Shown here in pieces: positions 12,544 to 22,491 of a DNA stretch of 33,735 nt. Each line of letters starts with the position of its first letter. Positions within the stretch are counted from its first letter, which is position 1. The DNA lies in contig FIZK01000007.1 of NCBI GenBank assembly GCA_900018335.1, positions 1 through 33,735 of the forward strand, written 5' to 3'. The notes beneath the pieces are model-generated. The model was not told the origin of the DNA and did not search any database. It was given only the letters and a program-made list of their open reading frames with translations. This DNA is from an uncultured Clostridia bacterium. Its GTDB lineage: Bacteria > Bacillota > Limnochordia > Darwinibacteriales > Darwinibacteriaceae. Made by a program: the position numbers and the translations under genes.

Positions 12544-12740
12544 CGTATTTGCTCCTTTACCTAGATGGAATTTTGGCCGAACCAGGCCTTGAACTGGGGT
12601 TCTCTATGAAATGGTTTACAGTCGTATTTCTCTTTACAACAGTAAAACCCTTCTCCGTCACCCGGAGCACGACGCCCGACTCCTGGCGGGGGGGATAGTC
12701 TTGAAAACCGCATGCTTATTGAGGAAAGCGGTCTTCTTTA

Positions 12741-12911: not shown

Positions 12912-12940
12912 TTGCCGGTGCAGGGGGGATGTGTTAATAT
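12912..12940 (+). promoter_or_regulatory. Promoter of the transporter/deglycosidase operon
   Basis: TTGCCG (12912-12917), a 17-bp spacer, then TAATAT (12935-12940) with TGT before it (extended -10). Transcription would start near 12947, just before the operator at 12951. The same arrangement recurs at 22444. Confidence 0.65.
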
Positions 12941-12950
12941 ATATACGCCA

Positions 12951-12964
12951 TGTGAACGATTACA
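12951..12964 (+). promoter_or_regulatory. LacI-family/cre-like operator
   Basis: TGTGAACGATTACA is a near-palindrome with the central CG typical of LacI/GalR and CcpA sites, matching the cre consensus at all but one position. It sits at the expected transcription start, so bound repressor would block the operon at 13044. It is the reverse complement of the site at 22478 with one difference. Confidence 0.65.
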
Positions 12965-13043
12965 TGAAAGCACTGTTTACACAAGTATAAGTGATTGGGT
13001 TCACGGGTTTGGCAGGCTAGAAGTCTATGTTAGGGGGTCCAAA

Positions 13044-14027
13044 ATGAAAGCGGTACAGTCAGCAGCGGTAGGTGGACGATTATTACAGAATAGAAGGTTG
13101 CGCGCTCAGCTGCTCCTCTTTTCTGGCATTATTTTGGTTTACCTAATTTTTAACGGCGTCTTGGACGGGAGGCTCTTAACGGCCACCAATCTGAGGATTA
13201 TCTTGTCGCACGCCGTGTTCCCCGCGCTGGTTGCCTGGGGTATGAGCTTCTTCTTTTCCACCGGTATTATCGATCTCTCAGTGGGTTCCAACATCATCTT
13301 GTCCGCCAACGTGGGCTGTTATCTGGCTACACGGCTTAACCTGGGCATGCCGGGACTGATTGTGGGGACGATCCTCACCTGCATGCTGCTCCAGCATCTC
13401 AATATTCGGGCCATCATTGATTTGGAAATACCTTCGTGGATCGCTGGTTTGGGCGCTGCACTGGTCTATGAGGCCATCACAGCCCAGTATATGTATACAC
13501 AAAACATCATGGCGCTGGATCTGCCCAACAAGTATCGGCCCCTAGGCAACATGCCTTACTTAGGGATCGTCTACTTCGCGGCCTTTGCTGTGGCTTATTT
13601 TCTATCTAACCGTACCACCGTCGGTCTGAACATCAAAGCTTTGGGCGGTAACCAGCAGGTGGCTGGCTCAATGGGTATTGACCGCAAGAAGACCGTAATT
13701 ATCGGGGCACTCATTGGGGCGGCTTTCATTGGTATGGGTGCCGTGATTCAAATATCCTATGCCGGCCGCGTTTACGCCACAACGGGGTTAGGCAGTCTCG
13801 CTTCGATTTTCCAGGCCCTGGCCTGTGTCCTGTTGTCGGGCTCCATAGCCAGTATTCTCTCGCCTCCGGTGGGCATTCTGGTATCCTCATTCTTTGTCGT
13901 AAGCATTTTCAACGTGCTGACGATGCTGGGAGTCCCCTCAGGCACAGGTCAGGACATTTTCTTAGGCGTCATTGTAGTTGTCTGCGGCATTCTGTCCCAC
14001 TTAAGACATAAGGGTGTGGTTAAATGA
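13044..14027 (+). CDS. Sugar ABC transporter permease, RbsC-like (first of two)
   Basis: This 327-aa multi-spanning permease belongs to the ribose/xylose-type ABC importers (the BPD_transp_2 type, without an EAA loop of the MalFG kind). About eight or more hydrophobic segments cover the protein; the stretch DLSVGSNIILSANVG near residues 78-92 corresponds to the family's conserved first half. ATG 13044 is chosen because GGGGG lies 6 bases before it and because longer frames would start inside the promoter and operator. It heads the operon. It is followed by the binding protein, the ATPase and a second, different permease, so the channel is probably a heterodimer. The intergenic gap after it carries a second copy of the operator. 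Confidence 0.9.
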   Translation: MKAVQSAAVGGRLLQNRRLRAQLLLFSGIILVYLIFNGVLDGRLLTATNLRIILSHAVFPALVAWGMSFFFSTGIIDLSVGSNIILSANVGCYLATRLNLGMPGLIVGTILTCMLLQHLNIRAIIDLEIPSWIAGLGAALVYEAITAQYMYTQNIMALDLPNKYRPLGNMPYLGIVYFAAFAVAYFLSNRTTVGLNIKALGGNQQVAGSMGIDRKKTVIIGALIGAAFIGMGAVIQISYAGRVYATTGLGSLASIFQALACVLLSGSIASILSPPVGILVSSFFVVSIFNVLTMLGVPSGTGQDIFLGVIVVVCGILSHLRHKGVVK

Positions 14028-14105
14028 TCAACGCTTGAAGCTGACCTGCCTCCAGCTCCATGCTGGCGGCGATTGAAGATTGCATGGACTGAAAGCGCCT
14101 TGGAT

Positions 14106-14119
14106 GGTAAACGATTCCA
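14106..14119 (+). promoter_or_regulatory. Second, weaker LacI-type operator copy
   Basis: GGTAAACGATTCCA matches the ideal 14-mer TGTAAACGATTACA at 12 of 14 positions. It lies between the first permease gene and the binding-protein gene, 33 bases before the latter's start. It could be an auxiliary site for looping or roadblock repression. Confidence 0.45.
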
Positions 14120-14152
14120 ACAAATCCTAATATTAGGAGGAGAAACTGAATT

Positions 14153-15280
14153 ATGCGACTGAAGAACACTGCATTGCTGCTGGTCCTCATTCTAAGCTTG
14201 GCCTTGTCTCCGACAGTCCTCGCCGCCGGACACAAAATTGGCTACAACTATTTCGGCAACGCGGGCGTGCTGATCACCCTGGCCAACAACTCCAAGTATG
14301 TTATCGAAGCCTTCGGCGGCACTGCCGTCTCCGTTGACAACCAGTTCAGCGTGGACAAGATCGTCACTGACCTGGAGAACCTCATTGCTTCCGGTGTGGA
14401 CGGACTGCTCGTATGGGCCCCCACTCCAACCCTCTATCCGGTCATCAGCCAAATGTGCCTGGAAGCCGGCGTGCCTTTTGTTCTCAACGACAAGGTTCCC
14501 ATGGAGCCCGAACTGAGGGCAATGCTCAGGATGAACCCCTACTTCGTCGGCGGCGTTGCTCCAACCAATGCTGATTACGGCCGTGCACTTGGTGAGTATG
14601 TGGTGGCCAAGGGCTACAAAACCTGTATCGTGAACACCTCTCAGCCTGGCGACCCCAGCGACGAGCCCAGACTGGCTGCATTTAGAGAAGTATACGAAGC
14701 TAACGGTGGAGTAATTCTGGATATCGTTCGCTCCTCTGGAACAGATGGCGGCAAATCCCAAGTTGAGAACTCCCTCATCGCTCACCAGAATCCTGATTTC
14801 ATCTACGGTGTAGGTCCCTCCTTTGCCATCGGTGCTATCCAGGCCCTGGAGAGGTACGACTATGATACAACTGTAGTTACCTCTGGTCTGGAAGAAGCTG
14901 TTTTGGACCTGCTCGCAGAAGGCAAGATCGAGGTTGCCAATGGCGACAACTGGATCTGCGGCACCCTGTCCGCACTGATGCTCCAGAGCTACCTGGACGG
15001 CAATCCGCTGCGTGATGAAAACGGTGAGGCCCCAATCATTGATACGGTTGGTTTCTACGAAGTAACCGCTGAGCAAGTTGAGCTGTACAAGCGCTTCTTC
15101 ATCGAGGAACATCCCTATTCCGTTGAAGAAATCCTGTCCTTTAGCGGCCCCGACTTTGACTTCGCCGCTTTCATGGAGCTGATCGAAAACTACACCCTCG
15201 AGAACAGAATGGCAGCCAAAGCCCGTGAGGGTAAGGTAACCATCGAAGAACTGAAAGCTGTAGGCATTAACGTCCAGTAG
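14153..15280 (+). CDS. Periplasmic sugar-binding protein, RbsB-like
   Basis: This 375-aa substrate-binding protein of the ribose-type ABC importer has a signal peptide (MRLKNTALL..., cleavage near VLA-AGH, residue 24-25) and no lipobox cysteine. The mature part follows the two-lobe periplasmic binding protein (type 1, Peripla_BP_4-like) pattern: an early strand (GHKIGYNYFG), the SGVDGLLVWAPTP turn at about 82-94, then DPSDEPRLAAF and the second lobe. The sugar is not predictable from sequence. An AGGAGGAG ribosome binding site precedes the ATG by about 10 bases. It is followed by a 179-base gap containing an operator-like site and a strong stem-loop, a common arrangement that leaves the binding protein more abundant than the rest of the transporter. 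Confidence 0.9.
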   Translation: MRLKNTALLLVLILSLALSPTVLAAGHKIGYNYFGNAGVLITLANNSKYVIEAFGGTAVSVDNQFSVDKIVTDLENLIASGVDGLLVWAPTPTLYPVISQMCLEAGVPFVLNDKVPMEPELRAMLRMNPYFVGGVAPTNADYGRALGEYVVAKGYKTCIVNTSQPGDPSDEPRLAAFREVYEANGGVILDIVRSSGTDGGKSQVENSLIAHQNPDFIYGVGPSFAIGAIQALERYDYDTTVVTSGLEEAVLDLLAEGKIEVANGDNWICGTLSALMLQSYLDGNPLRDENGEAPIIDTVGFYEVTAEQVELYKRFFIEEHPYSVEEILSFSGPDFDFAAFMELIENYTLENRMAAKAREGKVTIEELKAVGINVQ

Positions 15281-15329
15281 CCTGATCAGCTGGAGGGCTG
15301 TGCGTAAGTTAGGGAAGAAACTCTGAAGC

Positions 15330-15343
15330 GGTAATCGTTTGCC
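15330..15343 (+). promoter_or_regulatory. Third operator-like copy, before the ATPase gene
   Basis: GGTAATCGTTTGCC matches TGTAATCGTTTACA at 11 of 14 positions, including the whole central core GTAATCGTTT. It lies in the gap between the binding-protein and ATPase genes. Without the other copies it would not be called. Confidence 0.35.
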
Positions 15344-15372
15344 AAATTGCAGGTGCTTTCGTCTGCAGAGCG

Positions 15373-15434
15373 GCAATGGGCGGCCAGATTGCGGCGGTTG
15401 TCCTGAGGGCAGCTGCCGCAATCGAACCCATTGC
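15373..15434 (+). other. Two-tier stem-loop between binding-protein and ATPase genes
   Basis: The outer arms GCAATGGG/CCCATTGC (8 bp) and inner arms GATTGCGGC/GCCGCAATC (9 bp) are both perfect, separated by a small internal loop. It is followed by only three T residues. It probably protects the upstream binding-protein mRNA from 3' decay, or attenuates read-through into the ATPase gene. Confidence 0.75.
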
Positions 15435-15476
15435 TTTCCAAGTGTTTTGTGAAAGAAGATGTCGAGGGGTGACCAC

Positions 15477-16991
15477 ATGACGGACAGCAATCTATTCGTG
15501 GTAAAAAATGTGAGCAAAAGGTTCGGTGCCACGCTTGCCAACAACAATGTGAGCTTAACCATTAAAAAGGGCGAGATCCGTGGCTTGGCCGGCGAGAATG
15601 GTTCCGGTAAATCGACCCTGTGCTCGATTATCTGCGGAATACACCAGAAGGACGAAGGTTCCATGCACAAGTGGGGTCAACCATATGCGCCGACCTCGCC
15701 CATCGATGCCAACTCCAAAGGAGTGGCCATGGTTGTGCAGGAGTTGGGGATCATCGAAACCCTGTCGGTGGCGGAGAACATTTTCCTAGGTAAAACTGCC
15801 CAGTTTACCAAGCGCGGTCTGCTCAGTGTGGAACAGATGAACAAGGCAGCTGCCCAGGAACTGAAAAAATGGGGTCTGGATGACATAGATGCTCATACCA
15901 AAGCGGGCCAGCTCTCCATTGAGCAGAGGAAGCTGGTGGAGCTGGTGCGGGCCTTGTCTGTAAATCCCGAGGTTCTGATTCTAGACGAAATTTCTCAGGC
16001 CTTGTCCCATGACAAGCGTGAGCTGTTGTACCGCCTGATCGATAAATGTACTGACCTGGGCATGACTATCATTGTTGTCACCCACGACATCCATGAGATG
16101 CTCGAATTGACAGACTCCATCACAGTTTTGCGTGACGGCAGTGTTGTGGGCACAGTTGAGAGTAAGGATTTAACCGAGTCGGAACTCAAACGCATGATGG
16201 TAGGGCGAGAGCTGAGTGAGAGCCTGTATCGCAATGACGAACAAGAAAACCAGGGCGGAGAAGTGGTGCTGTCCGTCAGTCAGCTCAGCGATGCCAAATT
16301 GCGCGATATATCGTTTGAACTGCGTCGAGGAGAAATCCTGGCTGTGTGCGGCCTCAGTGATGGCGGCACCCATGAGCTGGGCGAAGCTATTTTTGGAATT
16401 AGGGAGAACAGAACCGGTTCTGTAGTTGCCAACGTATCTGGGAAACAGCTGAACAAGCCCATTGATGTGATCAAGAACAGGGGCGCTTATGTTCCCAAAG
16501 ACAGGGACGATCACGGCTTGATGCTCAATGCCAGTGTCCGGGATAACCTCCTGGTTCCCTCCGCAAGGCGTTTGGCGGCTTTGAAAAACGCCTTTGGTTT
16601 CATCGCTCCCAAGCGGGTCAGGGCGCTAACCAAAGAAGCGGTTGACACCATGTCCATCAAGACCCATGACGCCAACATTCAGAAAGTTGGCAGTCTCAGT
16701 GGCGGGAACAAACAGAAGGTCAGCTTGGCGAAATGGCTGGTGCAGAATCTGGATTTCCTCATCCTGGATTGCCCCACCCGCGGCGTGGATGTGGGCGTGA
16801 AGGGCTATATCTATGAAAAGATGCTGGAAGCGACAAAAGAAGGTCTGGCAATCCTCATGATCACTGAAGAACTGGCGGAAGCCATTGGCATGGCAGATCG
16901 CATCCTCGTGCTCAAAGACGGAGCGGCAGTCAGAACCTTCACCAGAAGTGAAGGCTTTACCGAAGAGAAGATAGTTGAGGTGATGATGTAG
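15477..16991 (+). CDS. Sugar ABC transporter ATP-binding protein, RbsA-like double ATPase
   Basis: This 504-aa cytoplasmic ATPase has two fused nucleotide-binding domains that power the ribose-type importer. Domain 1 has a full Walker A (GENGSGKST, 39-47), the signature QLSIEQRK and Walker B VLILDE. Domain 2 lacks a Walker A lysine (CGLSDGGTHE), as in other RbsA-like proteins, but keeps the signature LSGGNKQKV. Its Walker B reads LILDCPTRGVDVG, with Cys432 where a catalytic Glu is usual. ATG 15477 is preferred over ATG 15459, since GAGGGG lies 7 bases before it. The stop overlaps the start of the second permease by one base. One intact and one degenerate ATP site are expected. Confidence 0.93.
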   Translation: MTDSNLFVVKNVSKRFGATLANNNVSLTIKKGEIRGLAGENGSGKSTLCSIICGIHQKDEGSMHKWGQPYAPTSPIDANSKGVAMVVQELGIIETLSVAENIFLGKTAQFTKRGLLSVEQMNKAAAQELKKWGLDDIDAHTKAGQLSIEQRKLVELVRALSVNPEVLILDEISQALSHDKRELLYRLIDKCTDLGMTIIVVTHDIHEMLELTDSITVLRDGSVVGTVESKDLTESELKRMMVGRELSESLYRNDEQENQGGEVVLSVSQLSDAKLRDISFELRRGEILAVCGLSDGGTHELGEAIFGIRENRTGSVVANVSGKQLNKPIDVIKNRGAYVPKDRDDHGLMLNASVRDNLLVPSARRLAALKNAFGFIAPKRVRALTKEAVDTMSIKTHDANIQKVGSLSGGNKQKVSLAKWLVQNLDFLILDCPTRGVDVGVKGYIYEKMLEATKEGLAILMITEELAEAIGMADRILVLKDGAAVRTFTRSEGFTEEKIVEVMM

Positions 16992-17953
16992 TGTTGAGGA
17001 AAATCGACAAGAGTCTGCTCATGTCAGTGGTCATCCTGGTCCTAGTCCTCGTGGTATTTCAGATCACCACTAAAGGCAACTTGCTCACCAAGCGCAATCT
17101 GTTGAACATCATCAACCAATCCCTCACCACGGCCATTGCTGGCCTGGGCCTGATCTTTGTTGCGGCCATGGGGGGAACGAACATCACCGCCGGAGTTGTG
17201 GCTGCCACTGCGGGCGTGATTGCGGTAACAGTGGCCCGAACCGCCTTTGCCTTGACTTTTCCCGCGGCCATGGCCGTTGGTCTGCTCTTCGGTCTGTTCT
17301 TGGGATTTGTCAACGCAGTGTTCAAAGTCCCATCCTTCATGGCTTCTTTGGCCATCTTGATTGCAGGCAGGGCTGCCTTTGTCTGGTACGTGAGCAGCCG
17401 GATTATTTTTGCCCCCATGGATATTTTGGCCCTGAACAAACTGGAGTACAAAATACCCATCCTGGCGTTGTTGACAATACTCATTGGTTATATTCTGGAA
17501 TACACTCCCTTCGGAAACTACGTCAAGGCCATCGGTGAGAACGAGAATGCCGTTAAATTCATGGGCATCAACGTACGGCGCTACAAGATCTGGGCTTACG
17601 CCCTTTCAGGCATCATGTTTGGTATTGCCGGCATTTTCCTCATCGCGCGCAGCGGTGGAGCCAGCCATACCATGGGTACCGGAATGGAAATGCAGGTGAT
17701 GATGGCCCTGTTTATCGGCGGCGTTCCTGTACAGGGTGGTACTGGTACTAGAATCTTCAAGCTGCTCTTCGGCGCTCCCCTCATTGTCCTTCTGGAGAAC
17801 GGCCTTGTACTCAGCGGCACATCTGGCCCCATGACTCAGCTCGTCAAGGGCCTGGCCCTGCTGGCCATCGTCTACCTGTCTGTGCGCTTGAACAAAGTGG
17901 AGCGGCTGCGTGAACCAAAGGAGCAATTGGCAAGCAGCCCGGGGCTATCTTGA
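16991..17953 (+). CDS. Sugar ABC transporter permease, RbsC-like (second of two)
   Basis: This 320-aa membrane permease of the ribose-type ABC family has eight to ten hydrophobic segments. It carries the family's typical VPSFMASLAILIAGRA segment (about 107-122) and ends the transport half of the operon. GTG 16991 overlaps the ATPase stop (TAGTG), with GAGGTGATG as the ribosome binding site. Its sequence differs clearly from the first permease, so the two probably form a heterodimeric channel with the double ATPase. Only 12 bases separate it from the first DUF6379 gene, which ties the transporter to the downstream deglycosidase-like genes and suggests it imports their substrate. Confidence 0.92.
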   Translation: MLRKIDKSLLMSVVILVLVLVVFQITTKGNLLTKRNLLNIINQSLTTAIAGLGLIFVAAMGGTNITAGVVAATAGVIAVTVARTAFALTFPAAMAVGLLFGLFLGFVNAVFKVPSFMASLAILIAGRAAFVWYVSSRIIFAPMDILALNKLEYKIPILALLTILIGYILEYTPFGNYVKAIGENENAVKFMGINVRRYKIWAYALSGIMFGIAGIFLIARSGGASHTMGTGMEMQVMMALFIGGVPVQGGTGTRIFKLLFGAPLIVLLENGLVLSGTSGPMTQLVKGLALLAIVYLSVRLNKVERLREPKEQLASSPGLS

Positions 17954-17965
17954 AAGGGGAGTTAA

Positions 17966-18409
17966 ATGGCACAGTTTCAGTCCTATAACAAGATCCTGGT
18001 TTGCCAAGAGGATGGCATCAGCAACATTGTGGTTAATGGGCAGGTTGTGGCCTATGAACTGAAGTGCAGATACCCTTCCTACCGAGGAACGTATCTGAGC
18101 TGCATTGAAGCTCTGGAGCTCTACGTTGACGGCGCTAGGGTGGAGGATGAGCGCATTAGCCTCCACCTTAACGGCAAGATTTTCCCCATTTCTCAGCTGA
18201 AGGAACTCTTCAGTGAGTATTGGTTCATCCTGGACAAAGGTACTCTGCGAATCTGGCAGCCCGGCGGACTTGCAGAAGGGGAGCACACTGTGGAGATCAG
18301 GATGAGGCACCGCATCCCCTACACGGGCTATTTTGGAGAATATCTAGTTCTGGACAGCAGAGATGAGAAGCAGTTGGAAGTCTTAAGGGGGGTGGAGCTG
18401 GATGGCTAA
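17966..18409 (+). CDS. DUF6379-type protein, candidate C-glycoside deglycosidase beta subunit (pair 1)
   Basis: This small 147-aa cytoplasmic protein is predicted to be all beta. It shares with the other two small proteins here the motifs YRGTYLS, a VDG turn, LNGKIF and GGLAEGEHTVEI, plus a C-terminal R-x-PY stretch. This pattern fits DUF6379, the beta subunit of C-glycoside deglycosidases such as DfgB and CarB, which assembles with a TIM-barrel alpha subunit and helps shape the active site. GGGGAG precedes the ATG. The last 8 bases overlap the start of the TIM-barrel gene, the coupling expected for two subunits made in equal amounts. Family assignment is from recalled motifs, not a search. 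Confidence 0.75.
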   Translation: MAQFQSYNKILVCQEDGISNIVVNGQVVAYELKCRYPSYRGTYLSCIEALELYVDGARVEDERISLHLNGKIFPISQLKELFSEYWFILDKGTLRIWQPGGLAEGEHTVEIRMRHRIPYTGYFGEYLVLDSRDEKQLEVLRGVELDG

Positions 18410-19355
18410 AGCCTACAAACCTGCGATCACACTGTACAGTTTTTCCGCTGAGTACATCACTGGTAAGCTCAGTTTGGAGGATTGCCTGAGGGAAGCCAGG
18501 GACATGGGTTTTGAAGCCGTGGAACTTGTGGCTTCGCAAATGGTGCCCGAGTATCCTTATCCGAGCGACGCCTGGATTGAGCACTTCAAGGAACTGTTAG
18601 CCCGCTATGAGCTGGAGCCCCTGTGCTACAGCGCCTATATTGACATGGGTATCCGCAGCGATCGTGATCTCACGGAAGAAGAGATCTTCCACTCCACCCT
18701 CAACGACATGCTCTATGCCCGGCGGCTGGGCTTCAAGTTCGTCCGCAGCCAGCATGCCATTTCTCCTGCCATCTTCAAGCGCATGCAGCCCTACTGCGAG
18801 CAGTTGGGAGTGAAGCTGTCCATTGAAATGCATGCTCCCCATCACCCAGATGTTCCCGTCTGGCAGGAGTATCTGGCCATCATGGAGGAGAGCAACGGCC
18901 AGTTGGGTGTGGTTCCCGACTTTGGCATTTTCGCGGAGCGGCCCCACGAACTGCTGCTGCTCCAGGCCGTTGAGGATTTCGGCTGTCGCCGGGAGAAAGT
19001 AGACCTGATCGTGCAGCACTTCAGCGAAGGCTTGCCCCAAAGCGATCTGGACCGCTTTGAGCTGAGCACTGCCGAGCAGAATTTCGCCGAGGAAGTGTAC
19101 AAGAATCACGGCCCGGCCCAATTGGAGTGGCTGGATCGTCTGGTCCCCCATTCCTTCCACATGCATGGGAAGTTCTGGTATCTGAAAGATGATCAGGATG
19201 ATTCCGGCATTCCCTACAAGAAGCTCCTGCAGCGCCTCAGCGAACTGGGATACAGCGGCTACATTGCTTGCGAGTATGAGGGGCACCATTTTCGGGATGA
19301 TATAGATGTTAAGGACCAACTGCAGAAGTTTGTCCGCTTACTGAACAGCATTTAG
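18402..19355 (+). CDS. TIM-barrel sugar isomerase-like protein, candidate deglycosidase alpha subunit (pair 1)
   Basis: This 317-aa protein of the xylose isomerase-like TIM-barrel superfamily (AP endonuclease 2 fold) carries the likely divalent-metal ligands E142 (IEMHAP, with H144 two residues on), D173 (PDFG), H255 (HMHGKF) and E291 or E293 (EYEGH). Relatives in C-glycoside deglycosidases (DgpC, DfgA, CarC) use such a metal centre to cleave the C-C bond of a 3-keto-C-glycoside. The alternative is a 3-keto-sugar isomerase/epimerase. The start overlaps the upstream DUF6379 gene by 8 bases. The N-terminus (ITLYSFSAEY) is shared with the other barrels here and with the partial gene at 33350. 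Confidence 0.8.
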   Translation: MAKAYKPAITLYSFSAEYITGKLSLEDCLREARDMGFEAVELVASQMVPEYPYPSDAWIEHFKELLARYELEPLCYSAYIDMGIRSDRDLTEEEIFHSTLNDMLYARRLGFKFVRSQHAISPAIFKRMQPYCEQLGVKLSIEMHAPHHPDVPVWQEYLAIMEESNGQLGVVPDFGIFAERPHELLLLQAVEDFGCRREKVDLIVQHFSEGLPQSDLDRFELSTAEQNFAEEVYKNHGPAQLEWLDRLVPHSFHMHGKFWYLKDDQDDSGIPYKKLLQRLSELGYSGYIACEYEGHHFRDDIDVKDQLQKFVRLLNSI

Positions 19356-19398
19356 CCCCGGCCATCCCGGGCAACATAGATAGATAGGGAGTGAGCTT

Positions 19399-19836
19399 AT
19401 GGGTCTGCAGATGAGGATCCACCTCAGGGACATTCTACAGAAAAACTCGCTGAGGAACTACTACTTAAGGGGGCGCGTGGAAGGGTTTCAGTTCGACGTG
19501 CTGCTGGCCAATTACCGCGGGCACTTCTTGTCCACCATTGAGCAACTGGAGGTCAGCATCAACGATCAACCTGTACCCAAAAAGGACATTTTGTTCTGCC
19601 TGAACGGCAAGGAATTCATCGTGGATGACCTGAAGAACCAATCCAATGAGTTCTGGACTATTGCTACACCTGCCACCATTAAGGTGAGAAAGCCTGGCGG
19701 CCTGGAGAAGGGCTCCCACAAAGTTACTCTCACCTTGATACTGCGCAATCCCTACCTGCCCAAACCCGGCAGCACGCAGCCGCATGACTATATTCCGATT
19801 AACAGCTCGGATGAGCAGCACATGGAATTGTGCTGA
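19399..19836 (+). CDS. DUF6379-type protein, candidate deglycosidase beta subunit (pair 2)
   Basis: This 145-aa small protein is a diverged paralogue of the 17966 gene. It keeps NYRGHFLSTIEQLEVSI, LNGKEF and GGLEKGSHKVTL, and ends in RNPYLPKPGS. No signal peptide or membrane segment is seen. It lies 43 bases after the first barrel gene and 19 bases before the next, in the same operon. The role is inferred from the DUF6379 family and its position: non-catalytic or co-catalytic partner of the barrel encoded at 19856. Confidence 0.73.
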   Translation: MGLQMRIHLRDILQKNSLRNYYLRGRVEGFQFDVLLANYRGHFLSTIEQLEVSINDQPVPKKDILFCLNGKEFIVDDLKNQSNEFWTIATPATIKVRKPGGLEKGSHKVTLTLILRNPYLPKPGSTQPHDYIPINSSDEQHMELC

Positions 19837-19855
19837 CTAGATAGGGGGGAACGAC

Positions 19856-20863
19856 TTGGCAGATATTAAACTAGGTGTTACTCTATACAGCTTCACTTAC
19901 GAGTATGTGACCGGCAAATACAGCTTGGAAGACTGTGTCAGGAAGGCCGCCGAACTTGGCGTGGACGGCTACGAGATCGTGGCTACCCAGATGATACCTT
20001 CTTACCCGTATATCAGCGATGAGTTTTTGGCCAAGGTGTCGGAGTTTGAGTACAAGTACGGTATTCGGCCCGTGGCCTATGGCGCCAACACGGATCGCGG
20101 GAAGCTCCACGATCGGGATCTCAACGATGAAGAGCTGGTGAACGACACCATCCGCGACATTCAAAACGCACATAAGCTAGGCTGCAAGGTGGTGCGGGCC
20201 CAGTATCTCTTGTCGCCGGAGAACCTGGTGCGCATCGCGCCTTACGCCGAAGAGTATGACGTCAAGGTGGGCATTGAGATACATAACCCAGAGACGCCCA
20301 GCACTCCAGCGATGCAGCGTTACTTAGAAGCCATTGAAAAGAGCGGCTCCACCCACATCGGGTTTGTGCCTGATCTGGGCTGCTTTGCCACCAAACCCAA
20401 CATCAAGAACTACGATGGCGCCCTGAAAAAGGGAGCGAACAAGGAGATGCTGGACTACGCGGTTGAGCTCAAGCGCGCCGATGTACCCCTGCGCGAGGCT
20501 GAACAGCGGCTCAAGGACAAGGGAGCAGATCCCCACGTCATGTCTGCCTTTTACGACATGTACGGTTACCTCACGTTCTACAATGAGCCGGACCTGGACG
20601 GACTGCGCCGCATCATGCCTTACGTCTTCCATTTCCACGGCAAGTTCCACGCCATGAGAAATGGGGAAGAGACGAGTATCCCCTATCCTGAGGTCTTGGA
20701 AGCCATTTTCAACACTGACTTTTCCGGCTATATCGTCTCCGAGTATGAAGGCCATTCCTTGAGGGCTGACGGCCTAGTGGATTACGACGCCTTTGAGGCG
20801 GTCCGCCAGCATCTGGAAATGGAGCGCAGGATCCTAGCAGAGCTGGGGCAGAAGCAGAAGTAA
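19856..20863 (+). CDS. TIM-barrel sugar isomerase-like protein, candidate deglycosidase alpha subunit (pair 2)
   Basis: This 335-aa paralogue of the 18402 product keeps the metal-ligand set E141 (IEIHNP, with H143), D173 (PDLG), H261 (HFHGKF) and E296 or E298 (SEYEGH). It starts with TTG 19856, supported by AGGGGGGA five bases upstream and by alignment of its N-terminus (IKLGVTLYSF) with the other barrels. Of the three it most resembles pair 1, but it carries an extra charged segment (about 185-225) that may alter the substrate pocket. Predicted reaction: cleavage or isomerisation of a 3-keto-glycoside. Exact substrate unknown. Confidence 0.8.
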   Translation: MADIKLGVTLYSFTYEYVTGKYSLEDCVRKAAELGVDGYEIVATQMIPSYPYISDEFLAKVSEFEYKYGIRPVAYGANTDRGKLHDRDLNDEELVNDTIRDIQNAHKLGCKVVRAQYLLSPENLVRIAPYAEEYDVKVGIEIHNPETPSTPAMQRYLEAIEKSGSTHIGFVPDLGCFATKPNIKNYDGALKKGANKEMLDYAVELKRADVPLREAEQRLKDKGADPHVMSAFYDMYGYLTFYNEPDLDGLRRIMPYVFHFHGKFHAMRNGEETSIPYPEVLEAIFNTDFSGYIVSEYEGHSLRADGLVDYDAFEAVRQHLEMERRILAELGQKQK

Positions 20864-20877
20864 AGGGAGGAGATTCC

Positions 20878-21273
20878 ATGTATGATAAGCACATTCTAAC
20901 CGACGAAGGTGCGCGCAGCATTTGGGAAGATGGGAAAAAGGTGGGCTATTGCGTCAATCTGAAGATCAACTACTACCGCGGCCTGCCTCTCTGCTGCGTG
21001 GACGAGATTGCCCTCACCGTTGACGGTGAAGAGGTGGATCCGGCCACCATGTACGTACAGCACAACGGCAGAGAGTATCCTTACCTGGAGATTCTCTCCG
21101 ATGATTTCCCCACAGATTTCTACTGGTTGTTTGGGGAGAAACTCCGCGTCGTAGTAAAGAAAGACGGAGGAATCGAGCAGGGGCGGCATAAGGTCAAGGT
21201 AGTCCTGAAGACCCGCCGTTCCTATACACCGACCATGGTGGCGGAATGTGAGAAAGAACTCACCTTCGCGTAA
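20878..21273 (+). CDS. DUF6379-type protein, candidate deglycosidase beta subunit (pair 3)
   Basis: This 131-aa protein is the shortest and most diverged of the three small subunits. It retains YYRGLPL, LTVDGEEV, HNGREY, GGIEQGRHKVKV and a C-terminal RRSYTP stretch. These common positions across otherwise different sequences support one family. GGGAGGAG precedes the ATG. It is 14 bases after the second barrel gene and is followed by the third barrel gene, continuing the beta-alpha order. The function is inferred as for the other pairs. Confidence 0.73.
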   Translation: MYDKHILTDEGARSIWEDGKKVGYCVNLKINYYRGLPLCCVDEIALTVDGEEVDPATMYVQHNGREYPYLEILSDDFPTDFYWLFGEKLRVVVKKDGGIEQGRHKVKVVLKTRRSYTPTMVAECEKELTFA

Positions 21274-21293
21274 GGGTAGAAAGGGTGAAGAGC

Positions 21294-22346
21294 GTGACTA
21301 CAAAGAACTACGATATTAAGCTTGGGGTTTCCCTGTATAGCTATCAGGATAACTACTACTTCCACAAACACGACCTGGAGGGCTGTATAGCCGCGGCTGC
21401 CGGTTCCGGTGCACAGGGAATCGAAGTGTTTGCTGAGATGATGATGCCGGAGTGGCCGTACATATCCGATCGCTTCGTGGACTTGTGGAACGGTTGGATG
21501 CGGCGCTACGGTGTGGAGCCGGTCTGCTTCGATCACTTCTCGGATCGGGGCATGTGGAAGAATAAGCAGCTCACTGATGAGCAGATGGTCGAGCGTGGCA
21601 AGCTGTATATCCGCACGGCCGCCAAGTTGGGCTGCCCCATAGTGCGCGTCCTGCACAATGAACATATTGGGCCCGGCGTCAGCCCGTACCGCTTGACTGA
21701 CGTGAAAATCGTAGAGCAGCTCCTGCCGCTTTGTGCAGAACTGGACATCATGTTGGCTCTGGAGTTGCATGCACCCACCACGCTGGAGGATCCGGCCCAT
21801 CATCAGTACCTGGAAATGGCTGAACGGCTCGGCTTGCCTTACGTAGGCCTGATGGCGGACTTCAGCATGTACGAGTACTGCGCCAGCACCGCCGATGTGG
21901 GTCTGGCCATCCGCCAGGGCGCCACACCGGAGATACTCGAGTTCTACCGGAACAGCCAGAGGGAAGCCTATTTCCGCGGTGAGCCCTTCATCTATGAGGA
22001 AATCGCGGATCAGATTGAGAAACTGAACCCCAATGATGTGGACCGGCGCTTCATAGCCATGCAGAACCGCATGGTCGGTCAGGGGCCGGAGTCCTATGAA
22101 ACCCTCAAGCAGTACGCGTCCTCGCTGGTTTACTGCCACGCCAAGTTTTACGATCTGGATGAAGACGGCCAGGTGGACAACATCGACTACCCGAAGGTAA
22201 TCCAAGCTCTCAAGGACGGGGGCTACAAGGGCTATCTGAGCAGTGAGTTTGAGGGCAACAGGCGCATGAACGATGCCGGCTGGGTGGATGAGATTGAGTA
22301 TGTACGCCGCCATCAGAAGCTGATGCGGGAGTGCTTGGAAAAGTAG
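21294..22346 (+). CDS. TIM-barrel sugar isomerase-like protein, candidate deglycosidase alpha subunit (pair 3)
   Basis: This 350-aa third paralogue has likely metal ligands E157 (LELHAP, with H159), D189 (ADFSMY), H282 (YCHAKF) and E318 or E320 (SEFEGN). It differs from pairs 1 and 2 around three of these motifs: ADFS in place of PDxG, HAKF in place of HGKF, and EFEGN in place of EYEGH. Different stereochemistry or aglycone preference is therefore likely. GTG 21294 is chosen over GTG 21285 because the AAAGGG ribosome binding site has workable spacing only for the former. It is the last gene before the strong terminator at 22356. Confidence 0.8.
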   Translation: MTTKNYDIKLGVSLYSYQDNYYFHKHDLEGCIAAAAGSGAQGIEVFAEMMMPEWPYISDRFVDLWNGWMRRYGVEPVCFDHFSDRGMWKNKQLTDEQMVERGKLYIRTAAKLGCPIVRVLHNEHIGPGVSPYRLTDVKIVEQLLPLCAELDIMLALELHAPTTLEDPAHHQYLEMAERLGLPYVGLMADFSMYEYCASTADVGLAIRQGATPEILEFYRNSQREAYFRGEPFIYEEIADQIEKLNPNDVDRRFIAMQNRMVGQGPESYETLKQYASSLVYCHAKFYDLDEDGQVDNIDYPKVIQALKDGGYKGYLSSEFEGNRRMNDAGWVDEIEYVRRHQKLMRECLEK

Positions 22347-22355
22347 AGCTTGATT

Positions 22356-22402
22356 AAGGGGAGAACCAGCTGGGCTTTTCGGCCCAGCTGGGACACCCCT
22401 TT
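22356..22402 (+). terminator. Strong terminator closing the deglycosidase operon
   Basis: The perfect 10-bp arms CCAGCTGGGC and GCCCAGCTGG are flanked by AGGGG and CCCCTTT, which extend the stem. A T-rich stretch follows. It separates the long operon from the ROK-kinase operon. Confidence 0.88.
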
Positions 22403-22443: not shown

Positions 22444-22472
22444 TTGCCTAAAAGTGGCTTTTATGTTATAAT
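22444..22472 (+). promoter_or_regulatory. Promoter of the ROK kinase/oxidoreductase operon
   Basis: TTGCCT (22444-22449), a 17-bp spacer and a consensus TATAAT (22467-22472) preceded by TGT (extended -10). The predicted transcription start falls at the first bases of the operator at 22478. Confidence 0.8.
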
Positions 22473-22477
22473 TTGAA

Positions 22478-22491
22478 TGTAATCGTTTACA
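22478..22491 (+). promoter_or_regulatory. LacI-family/cre-type operator, best copy
   Basis: TGTAATCGTTTACA fits the cre/LacI-type consensus TGWAANCGNTNWCA at every position. It overlaps the expected transcription start, so it should repress. It either belongs to a dedicated LacI-family repressor encoded elsewhere or to CcpA. Confidence 0.75.

Follow-up and report, generated by a model that had tools for sequence, protein, structure and literature searches.

Operator-like palindromes and a predicted stem-loop flanking the binding-protein gene of a sugar-transporter operon in an uncultured Clostridia bacterium

Introduction

What would a repressor do between the genes of a sugar-transporter operon? 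The question is raised by a locus of an uncultured Clostridia bacterium, in which 14-nt palindromes resembling LacI-family operators are found next to two promoters and also in the two gaps on either side of the gene for the sugar-binding protein. A sequence-only reading of this DNA had described the two gap sites as extra operator copies and suggested DNA looping, internal promoters or roadblocks tuning the level of the binding protein. It proposed scoring them against shuffled sequence and comparing related genomes, and counted equally good matches in many coding regions against them. It mentioned neither the hairpin at 15368-15438 nor the promoter-linked operator at 22478.

Operator copies away from the promoter are familiar from other bacteria. 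The LacI site in lacZ, the GalR site OI in galE and the PurR site in purB of E. coli are described as likewise being copies of a promoter operator downstream of the start (PMC4052901; PMC4693257), although those sites lie within genes, whereas the candidates here are intercistronic, 1.2 and 2.4 kb downstream, and flank the binding-protein gene. The CcpA cre boxes of Bacillus subtilis (xyl, ara, gnt, sigL, acsA), according to the source, are CG-centred 14-bp sites which lie downstream and block elongation (PMC3463425). CcpA, however, is global, whereas the motif studied here is almost confined to one cluster at up to two mismatches, and the strong-cre consensus TGAAAGCGCTTTCA departs from ours, TGTAAWCGWTTACA, in the bases next to the CG as well as at positions 3 and 12. 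A limited open-access literature search, not a survey, found no title or abstract on this operon.

Results

The window, by which we mean the whole stretch of DNA analysed, is an entire 33.7-kb contig (C7) of a 91%-complete assembly of 1.79 Mb (1,786,211 bases). From 13044 the transporter genes run in the order permease, binding protein, ATPase, permease (Table 1). Gap 1 (14028-14152) separates permease and binding protein; gap 2, between binding protein and ATPase, covers 15281-15458 and would extend to 15476 with an ATPase start at 15477. The best NCBIfam models of the ATPase are xylose, arabinose and ribose ATPases, all below cut-off. Of its two in-frame ATGs, the one at 15477 is preceded by the better ribosome-binding site (AGGGGTGACCACATG), in a stretch that is the same in the relative introduced below. 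Located 3' of the transporter are three deglycosidase/TIM-barrel pairs, a ROK kinase (ATG 22518), another TIM barrel and two Gfo/Idh/MocA oxidoreductases. The three pairs follow one another at 17966-22346, each joining a C-glycoside deglycosidase beta subunit (PF19906) to a xylose-isomerase-like TIM barrel (PF01261), which suggests three paralogous deglycosidases within one operon. An inverted repeat, CCAGCTGGGC..GCCCAGCTGG, at 22360-22400, 5' of the ROK promoter, may mark where the upstream transcript ends; no terminator is listed at this place by the scan of the ROK upstream stretch, and the relative has a different inverted repeat in the same gap.

Table 1. Coordinates of genes, promoters, operator-like sites and predicted hairpins in the window.
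Feature	Position	Strand	Sequence or family	Remarks
Likely operon promoter	12912..12940	+	TTGCCG-17-TAATAT	By eye; 8/12 consensus bases
Main operator	12951..12964	+	TGTGAACGATTACA	1 mismatch; ten bases after -10 box
Sugar ABC permease 1	13044..14027	+	PF02653	4.5e-15 (scanned from 12912)
Auxiliary operator candidate 1	14106..14119	+	GGTAAACGATTCCA	34-47 nt upstream of binding-protein ATG
Sugar-binding protein gene	14153..15280	+	PF13407	8.1e-23; 82% identical ortholog in G013
Auxiliary operator candidate 2	15330..15343	+	GGTAATCGTTTGCC	116-129 nt upstream of ATG 15459
Small hairpin	15348..15367	+		Predicted; overlaps 17-nt identical block GGTGCTTTCGTCTGCAG (15352-15368)
Large intercistronic hairpin	15368..15438	+		Predicted fold, 29 pairs; comparable one in relative
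Sugar ABC ATPase	15459..16991	+	PF00005	Start 15459 or 15477
Sugar ABC permease 2	16991..17953	+	PF02653	1.8e-30
ROK kinase promoter	22444..22472	+	TTGCCT-17-TATAAT	10/12; 0.1 expected in shuffles of stretch
Operator at ROK promoter	22478..22491	+	TGTAATCGTTTACA	0 mismatches; five bases after -10 box

Orthologs of the binding protein were found in only two genomes of the samples searched (150 relatives, 72 class genomes and a sample of 398 phylum genomes; the samples overlap). The sole relative found to carry the operon is G013, on contig C33 (apparently DUPN01000087.1), and this is the genome from which its binding protein is given in Table 1. Viral contigs gave no further relative and genome contigs gave one. 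In four genomes of the same genus the binding protein is 34-36% identical and was not counted as an ortholog; one of these loci (L014) has a different gene layout around it, and the motif scan of the four found two sites with at most three mismatches in L014 and none in L015-L017.

The palindromes at 12951 and 22478 have, judged by their positions, the classical geometry of repressor operators. The likely operon promoter falls below the limit of the promoter scan and was not listed by it; at the homologous place the relative has TTGCCA-17-TAATAT, with TGTTAATATA as the conserved run. The main operator is identical in the relative at 14/14 positions, inside a 16-nt identical run. The site at 22478 is the sole perfect TGTAAWCGWTTACA match in the assembly, and its counterpart in the relative, TGTCACTGTTTAGA, is degenerate, with four mismatches. 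The consensus is the 22478 site with the two bases flanking the CG left open so that 12951 fits too, and since it was derived from these two sites they are not independent evidence for it. A second palindrome lies 40 bp 3' of the main operator (12991-13004 in the window, L018:363-376 in the relative); it is perfect in the relative (GTGAATCGATTCAC), the window copy (GTGATTGGGTTCAC) retains only the GTGA...TCAC arms, and it is possibly a second operator or the site of a different regulator.

With up to two mismatches the motif is found at six places in the 1,786,211 bases, five of them in the window, while the reversed pattern, a rough control only as it lacks the CG core, is found at two. The six places are 22478 (no mismatches), 12951 (one), and 12607, 14106, 22946 and C53:2688 (two each), and two of them (C53 and 22946) are coding. 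Allowing three mismatches gives 97 places in the whole assembly (54 for the reversed pattern); in the window alone seven are found against 1.85 expected, a number reached in one of 100 shuffles. Outside the window there are 89 three-mismatch sites, of which 42 were among the matches listed and 40 of these were checked; 35 of the 40 lie in reading frames, as expected by chance where most of the genome is coding. The caller used in this check was a crude longest-ORF one, which called 12951 coding from an upstream TTG start and assigned 22946 an antisense frame. The concern about coding matches points both ways, for only two of the six places are coding at up to two mismatches, but most of those checked are at three. 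Taking the rate outside the window, two sites with at most three mismatches in 303 bp of gap have a Poisson P of ~1e-4, and for three in the operon's 681 non-coding bases P is ~7e-6, the third being 22478, a source of the consensus. Across the G013 genome there is no clear enrichment of the motif, which is not confined to the cluster either: up to two mismatches it is present at 17 places, compared with 13 for the reversed pattern, and two of the 17 are on the operon contig.

Both gap sites are where the sequence-only reading had put them, in non-coding DNA, and agree with the 22478 site (TGTAAACGATTACA / TGTAATCGTTTACA, its two strands) at 12/14 positions for 14106 and 11/14 for 15330. The spacings, which it had given as about 1.2 kb, are 1155 bp from 12951 to 14106 and 1224 bp from 14106 to 15330. 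Each has the central CG; 14106 has two mismatches to the palindrome and keeps 4/7 dyad pairs, a weak symmetry, and 15330 has three mismatches and keeps 5/7. A central CG is described as typical of even palindromes of the LacI family, more than 75% of whose sites lie within -140 to -30 of the start codon (PMC4052901). All four sites here (12951, 14106, 15330 and 22478) are inside this zone or at its edge, with 15330 being 134-147 nt upstream if the alternative ATG 15477 is used.

In scoring against shuffled sequence, the score of 14106 was reached in 3/5000 shuffles of gap 1 and that of 15330 in 39/5000 shuffles of gap 2, and a weight matrix trained only on 12951, 22478 and their complements, without 14106 or 15330, ranks them 5th and 7th among the 33,722 positions of the window. 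A search of the window with the 15330 sequence as its own pattern shows no enrichment (three found against 2.3 expected; 40 of 100 shuffles reach three). Since matches with at most three mismatches occur at 97 places, and 35 of the 40 checked are coding, the score of 15330 proves little by itself. The same matrix places 22946, within a gene, and 12607, with no CG centre, above 14106. As an auxiliary operator 22946 (in the ROK gene) was rejected, its counterpart in the relative, TGTGATCATTAATG, having no CG, and it is probably a chance match in coding sequence. The site at 12607-12620 (TGAAATGGTTTACA, two mismatches, 5' of a divergent DUF624 gene) was discounted for want of a central CG, and its position is beyond the end of the relative's contig.

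Comparison with the relative separated the two candidates. The counterpart of 15330, AGTAATCGTTTACC, is 12/14 identical and with two mismatches is nearer the consensus, a score reached there in 1/5000 shuffles, whereas that of 14106, GGTAAATGAGTTCA, has the core CG changed to TG and a score which 948/5000 shuffles reach. Conservation thus favours 15330, though 14106 scores better in the window; a single relative is thin evidence for or against either site. From sequence, we regard 15330 as a candidate that the repressor probably binds, and 14106 as one whose binding is favoured by a smaller degree. The proposal of extra operator copies has in its favour the local enrichment and the conservation of 15330, and against it the lost core of 14106.

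Could one or both sites be chance matches, or decayed operators without function? The missing CG in the counterpart of 14106 would fit such an origin, as would the abundance of three-mismatch matches, mostly in reading frames where checked, and the equally good matches at 12607 and 22946. Against this, 14106 is among just six places of its quality in 1.79 Mb, two hits in 303 bp would be rare by chance, and 15330 is kept in the relative. We consider this explanation unlikely.

The candidate operator is only one of several conserved parts of gap 2, since four words are shared there and the ribosome-binding stretch at the ATPase start (from ~15454) is identical in the relative as well. The four exact words of at least 9 nt common to both species in 15281-15458 are the operator core GTAATCGTTT, the 17-nt block GGTGCTTTCGTCTGCAG, which in each species begins eight bases past the operator site, and, within the large hairpin, CCAGATTGC and CCCATTGCTT; the arms of this hairpin otherwise differ from the relative's. 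Aligning this gap gives two identical runs, to which word matching adds the two hairpin words misplaced by the alignment; the 41% identity of the remaining columns depends on the alignment and was not used. In 22 family genomes GGTGCTTTCGTCTGCAG, with up to one mismatch, occurs only in the window and at the homologous place in G013, and it is possibly part of an RNA structure. The small hairpin is predicted in both window folds and in the relative's shorter folds, while the relative's longer stretch (L018:2672-2800) pairs otherwise; prediction of the small hairpins, like that of an RNA hairpin at the palindrome, varies with the stretch folded.

The large hairpin has z scores of -4.3 (15330-15450) and -5.1 (relative, L018:2710-2800), and of -2.8 and -3.1 in longer stretches. 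Among 747 tiled 90-nt stretches of the window one alone folds as low, and it overlaps 15368-15438. The long GC-rich stem is followed by a U-poor tail with scattered U, and the terminator scan gave no canonical terminator for it. Rfam gave no family at gathering threshold in the whole window, and a lax run over 15250-15480 gave seven sub-threshold hits, five of them to microRNA families of animals or plants, one to a lncRNA and one to gabT, at 20.7 bits against a gathering threshold of 45. Stem-loops after binding-protein genes have been described in cellulolytic Clostridia as partial internal terminators that give an excess of binding protein; those of Ruminiclostridium cellulolyticum and other Clostridia likewise have a long GC-rich stem and a tail poor in U, and stand between the binding-protein gene and a translocator gene (PMC9045158). 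The predicted fold at 15368-15438 is likely a partial internal terminator or an mRNA 3'-end stabiliser of this kind. It differs in that an operator-like palindrome precedes it, and in that the binding-protein gene follows a permease gene and lies inside the cluster, whereas in the Clostridia described 99.5% are at cluster ends (PMC9045158). By this analogy the hairpin would be a simpler explanation of the binding-protein level than the operators, and the suggestion that the sites themselves tune that level gives way to it.

The site at 15330 has to be weighed also as a piece of a conserved RNA element between the binding-protein and ATPase genes and no DNA operator. The perfectly conserved block eight bases behind it is not operator-like, the relative also has two words of the large hairpin, the palindrome itself folds as a small RNA hairpin in shorter stretches, and hairpins after binding-protein genes govern stoichiometry in the Clostridia described (PMC9045158). 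However, the relative's site and 22478 share twelve contiguous bases (GTAATCGTTTAC). Of the changes between the two species, G12 to A retains the RNA pair and moves the site toward the operator consensus, and G1 to A breaks an RNA pair without bringing the site nearer to the consensus or farther from it. Nor is the palindrome the predicted hairpin in the longer folds of either species. An RNA element in place of an operator is in our opinion as unlikely as a chance origin.

Which protein might bind these sites? None of the window's 28 scanned proteins matches LacI. A LacI-family gene stands at the end of the relative's cluster (C33:15587-16612), with CytR and RbsR as best NCBIfam models, below cut-off, and with no site of at most three mismatches upstream. 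Its ortholog was not found in the 91%-complete assembly of the window, and may be in the missing part or really absent. This assembly (G000) has two LacI-family matches, compared with 14 in G013. Its two proteins are widespread, being present in 16/22 and 17/22 family genomes (E <= 1e-90, own included), whereas the binding-protein ortholog (82% or more) is in 2/22 of them; neither is favoured as the regulator, although either may be it. No CG-centred 14-mer with up to two mispairs was found within 430 nt 5' of the helix-turn-helix codons in a check covering these two genes, their G013 orthologs and the operon-linked LacI of G013. The two proteins score 211 and 161 bits with the ccpA model, whose cut-off is 442 bits; CcpA acting on cre is not our first choice, since hardly any copies of the motif lie outside the cluster in this genome (five of the six places with at most two mismatches are in the window). 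Elsewhere in G013, two LacI-type sites in tandem, TGTAATCGATTAAA and TTTAAACGATTAAA, spaced by 18 bp at C38:16704 and 16722 (L021 / L025), lie directly before a start codon, ~5 kb from a LacI gene on C38.

Discussion

The reading we prefer, tentatively and without calling it probable, is a combined one, in which the auxiliary operators hinder elongation, possibly with looping, and the hairpin separately sets the stoichiometry. The scheme that we infer, including LacI-family binding, the identity of the repressor, the elongation block and the termination or stabilisation by the hairpin, would run as follows. A LacI-family repressor would control the C-glycoside/sugar cluster from 12951 at the operon promoter and from 22478 at the kinase promoter. 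Without inducer it would occupy these two operators and, forming a further barrier, also 14106 and 15330, where it would hinder RNA polymerase that has leaked through, possibly aided by contact with repressor at 12951 through looping over 1.2 or 2.4 kb. All sites would be freed at once by inducer. How far binding protein exceeds the transporter would be set apart from the operators, by the hairpin at 15368-15438.

Precedents for such roadblocks are of unequal strength. Downstream CcpA sites are reported to act in this way at several B. subtilis operons (PMC3463425). The GalR roadblock at OI was described on a mutated template, and the native gal sequence overrides it (PMC4693257), so a bound repressor need not stop the polymerase. 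Because of this weaker GalR precedent and the additional conserved words in gap 2, our confidence in 15330 and in the combined mechanism is held lower.

Could the two sites be mainly looping partners of 12951, like the lac operator within lacZ, raising repressor occupancy at the main promoter? Two copies of the motif 3' of the main operator, without promoter-like matches, are what such a role would leave, and looping by LacI and GalR is described (PMC4693257). It requires, however, a repressor able to join two operators, the loops of 1.2 and 2.4 kb would be long, and looping is not expected to favour the conserved farther site, 15330, over the nearer 14106. Looping as the main role seems to us somewhat less likely than either a chance origin or an RNA element.

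Less likely again is that each site guards a weak internal promoter, so that binding protein and ATPase would be separate units under one repressor. In its favour, both sites precede a start codon by 34-147 nt, close to the zone usual for LacI-family sites, and the relative's gap 1 holds one weak match (TTCACT-18-TATCAT). But the promoter scan, which detects the 22478 promoter, gave nothing promoter-like in the two gaps of the window or in the relative's gap 2, and the internal promoters of the sequence-only reading are therefore disfavoured, with the reservation that the scan is imperfect: its threshold also misses the proposed main promoter, and it might miss a weak one.

Returning to the combined mechanism, its elements are all of known kinds and it fits a well-known tightening of gene control, not a new way of achieving it; the only unusual point is an operator followed by a hairpin resembling an internal terminator. 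It is conceivable, though we hold it more doubtful than any of the explanations above, that the 15330 operator and the hairpins directly behind it form a composite switch, in which bound repressor would stall the polymerase before the internal terminator. If that were true, the substrate level, acting via the repressor, would determine not just the total amount but also how much binding protein there is per translocator. If the sites are real, this operon would have repressor operators between its sugar-transporter genes, beside a hairpin that probably sets their stoichiometry.
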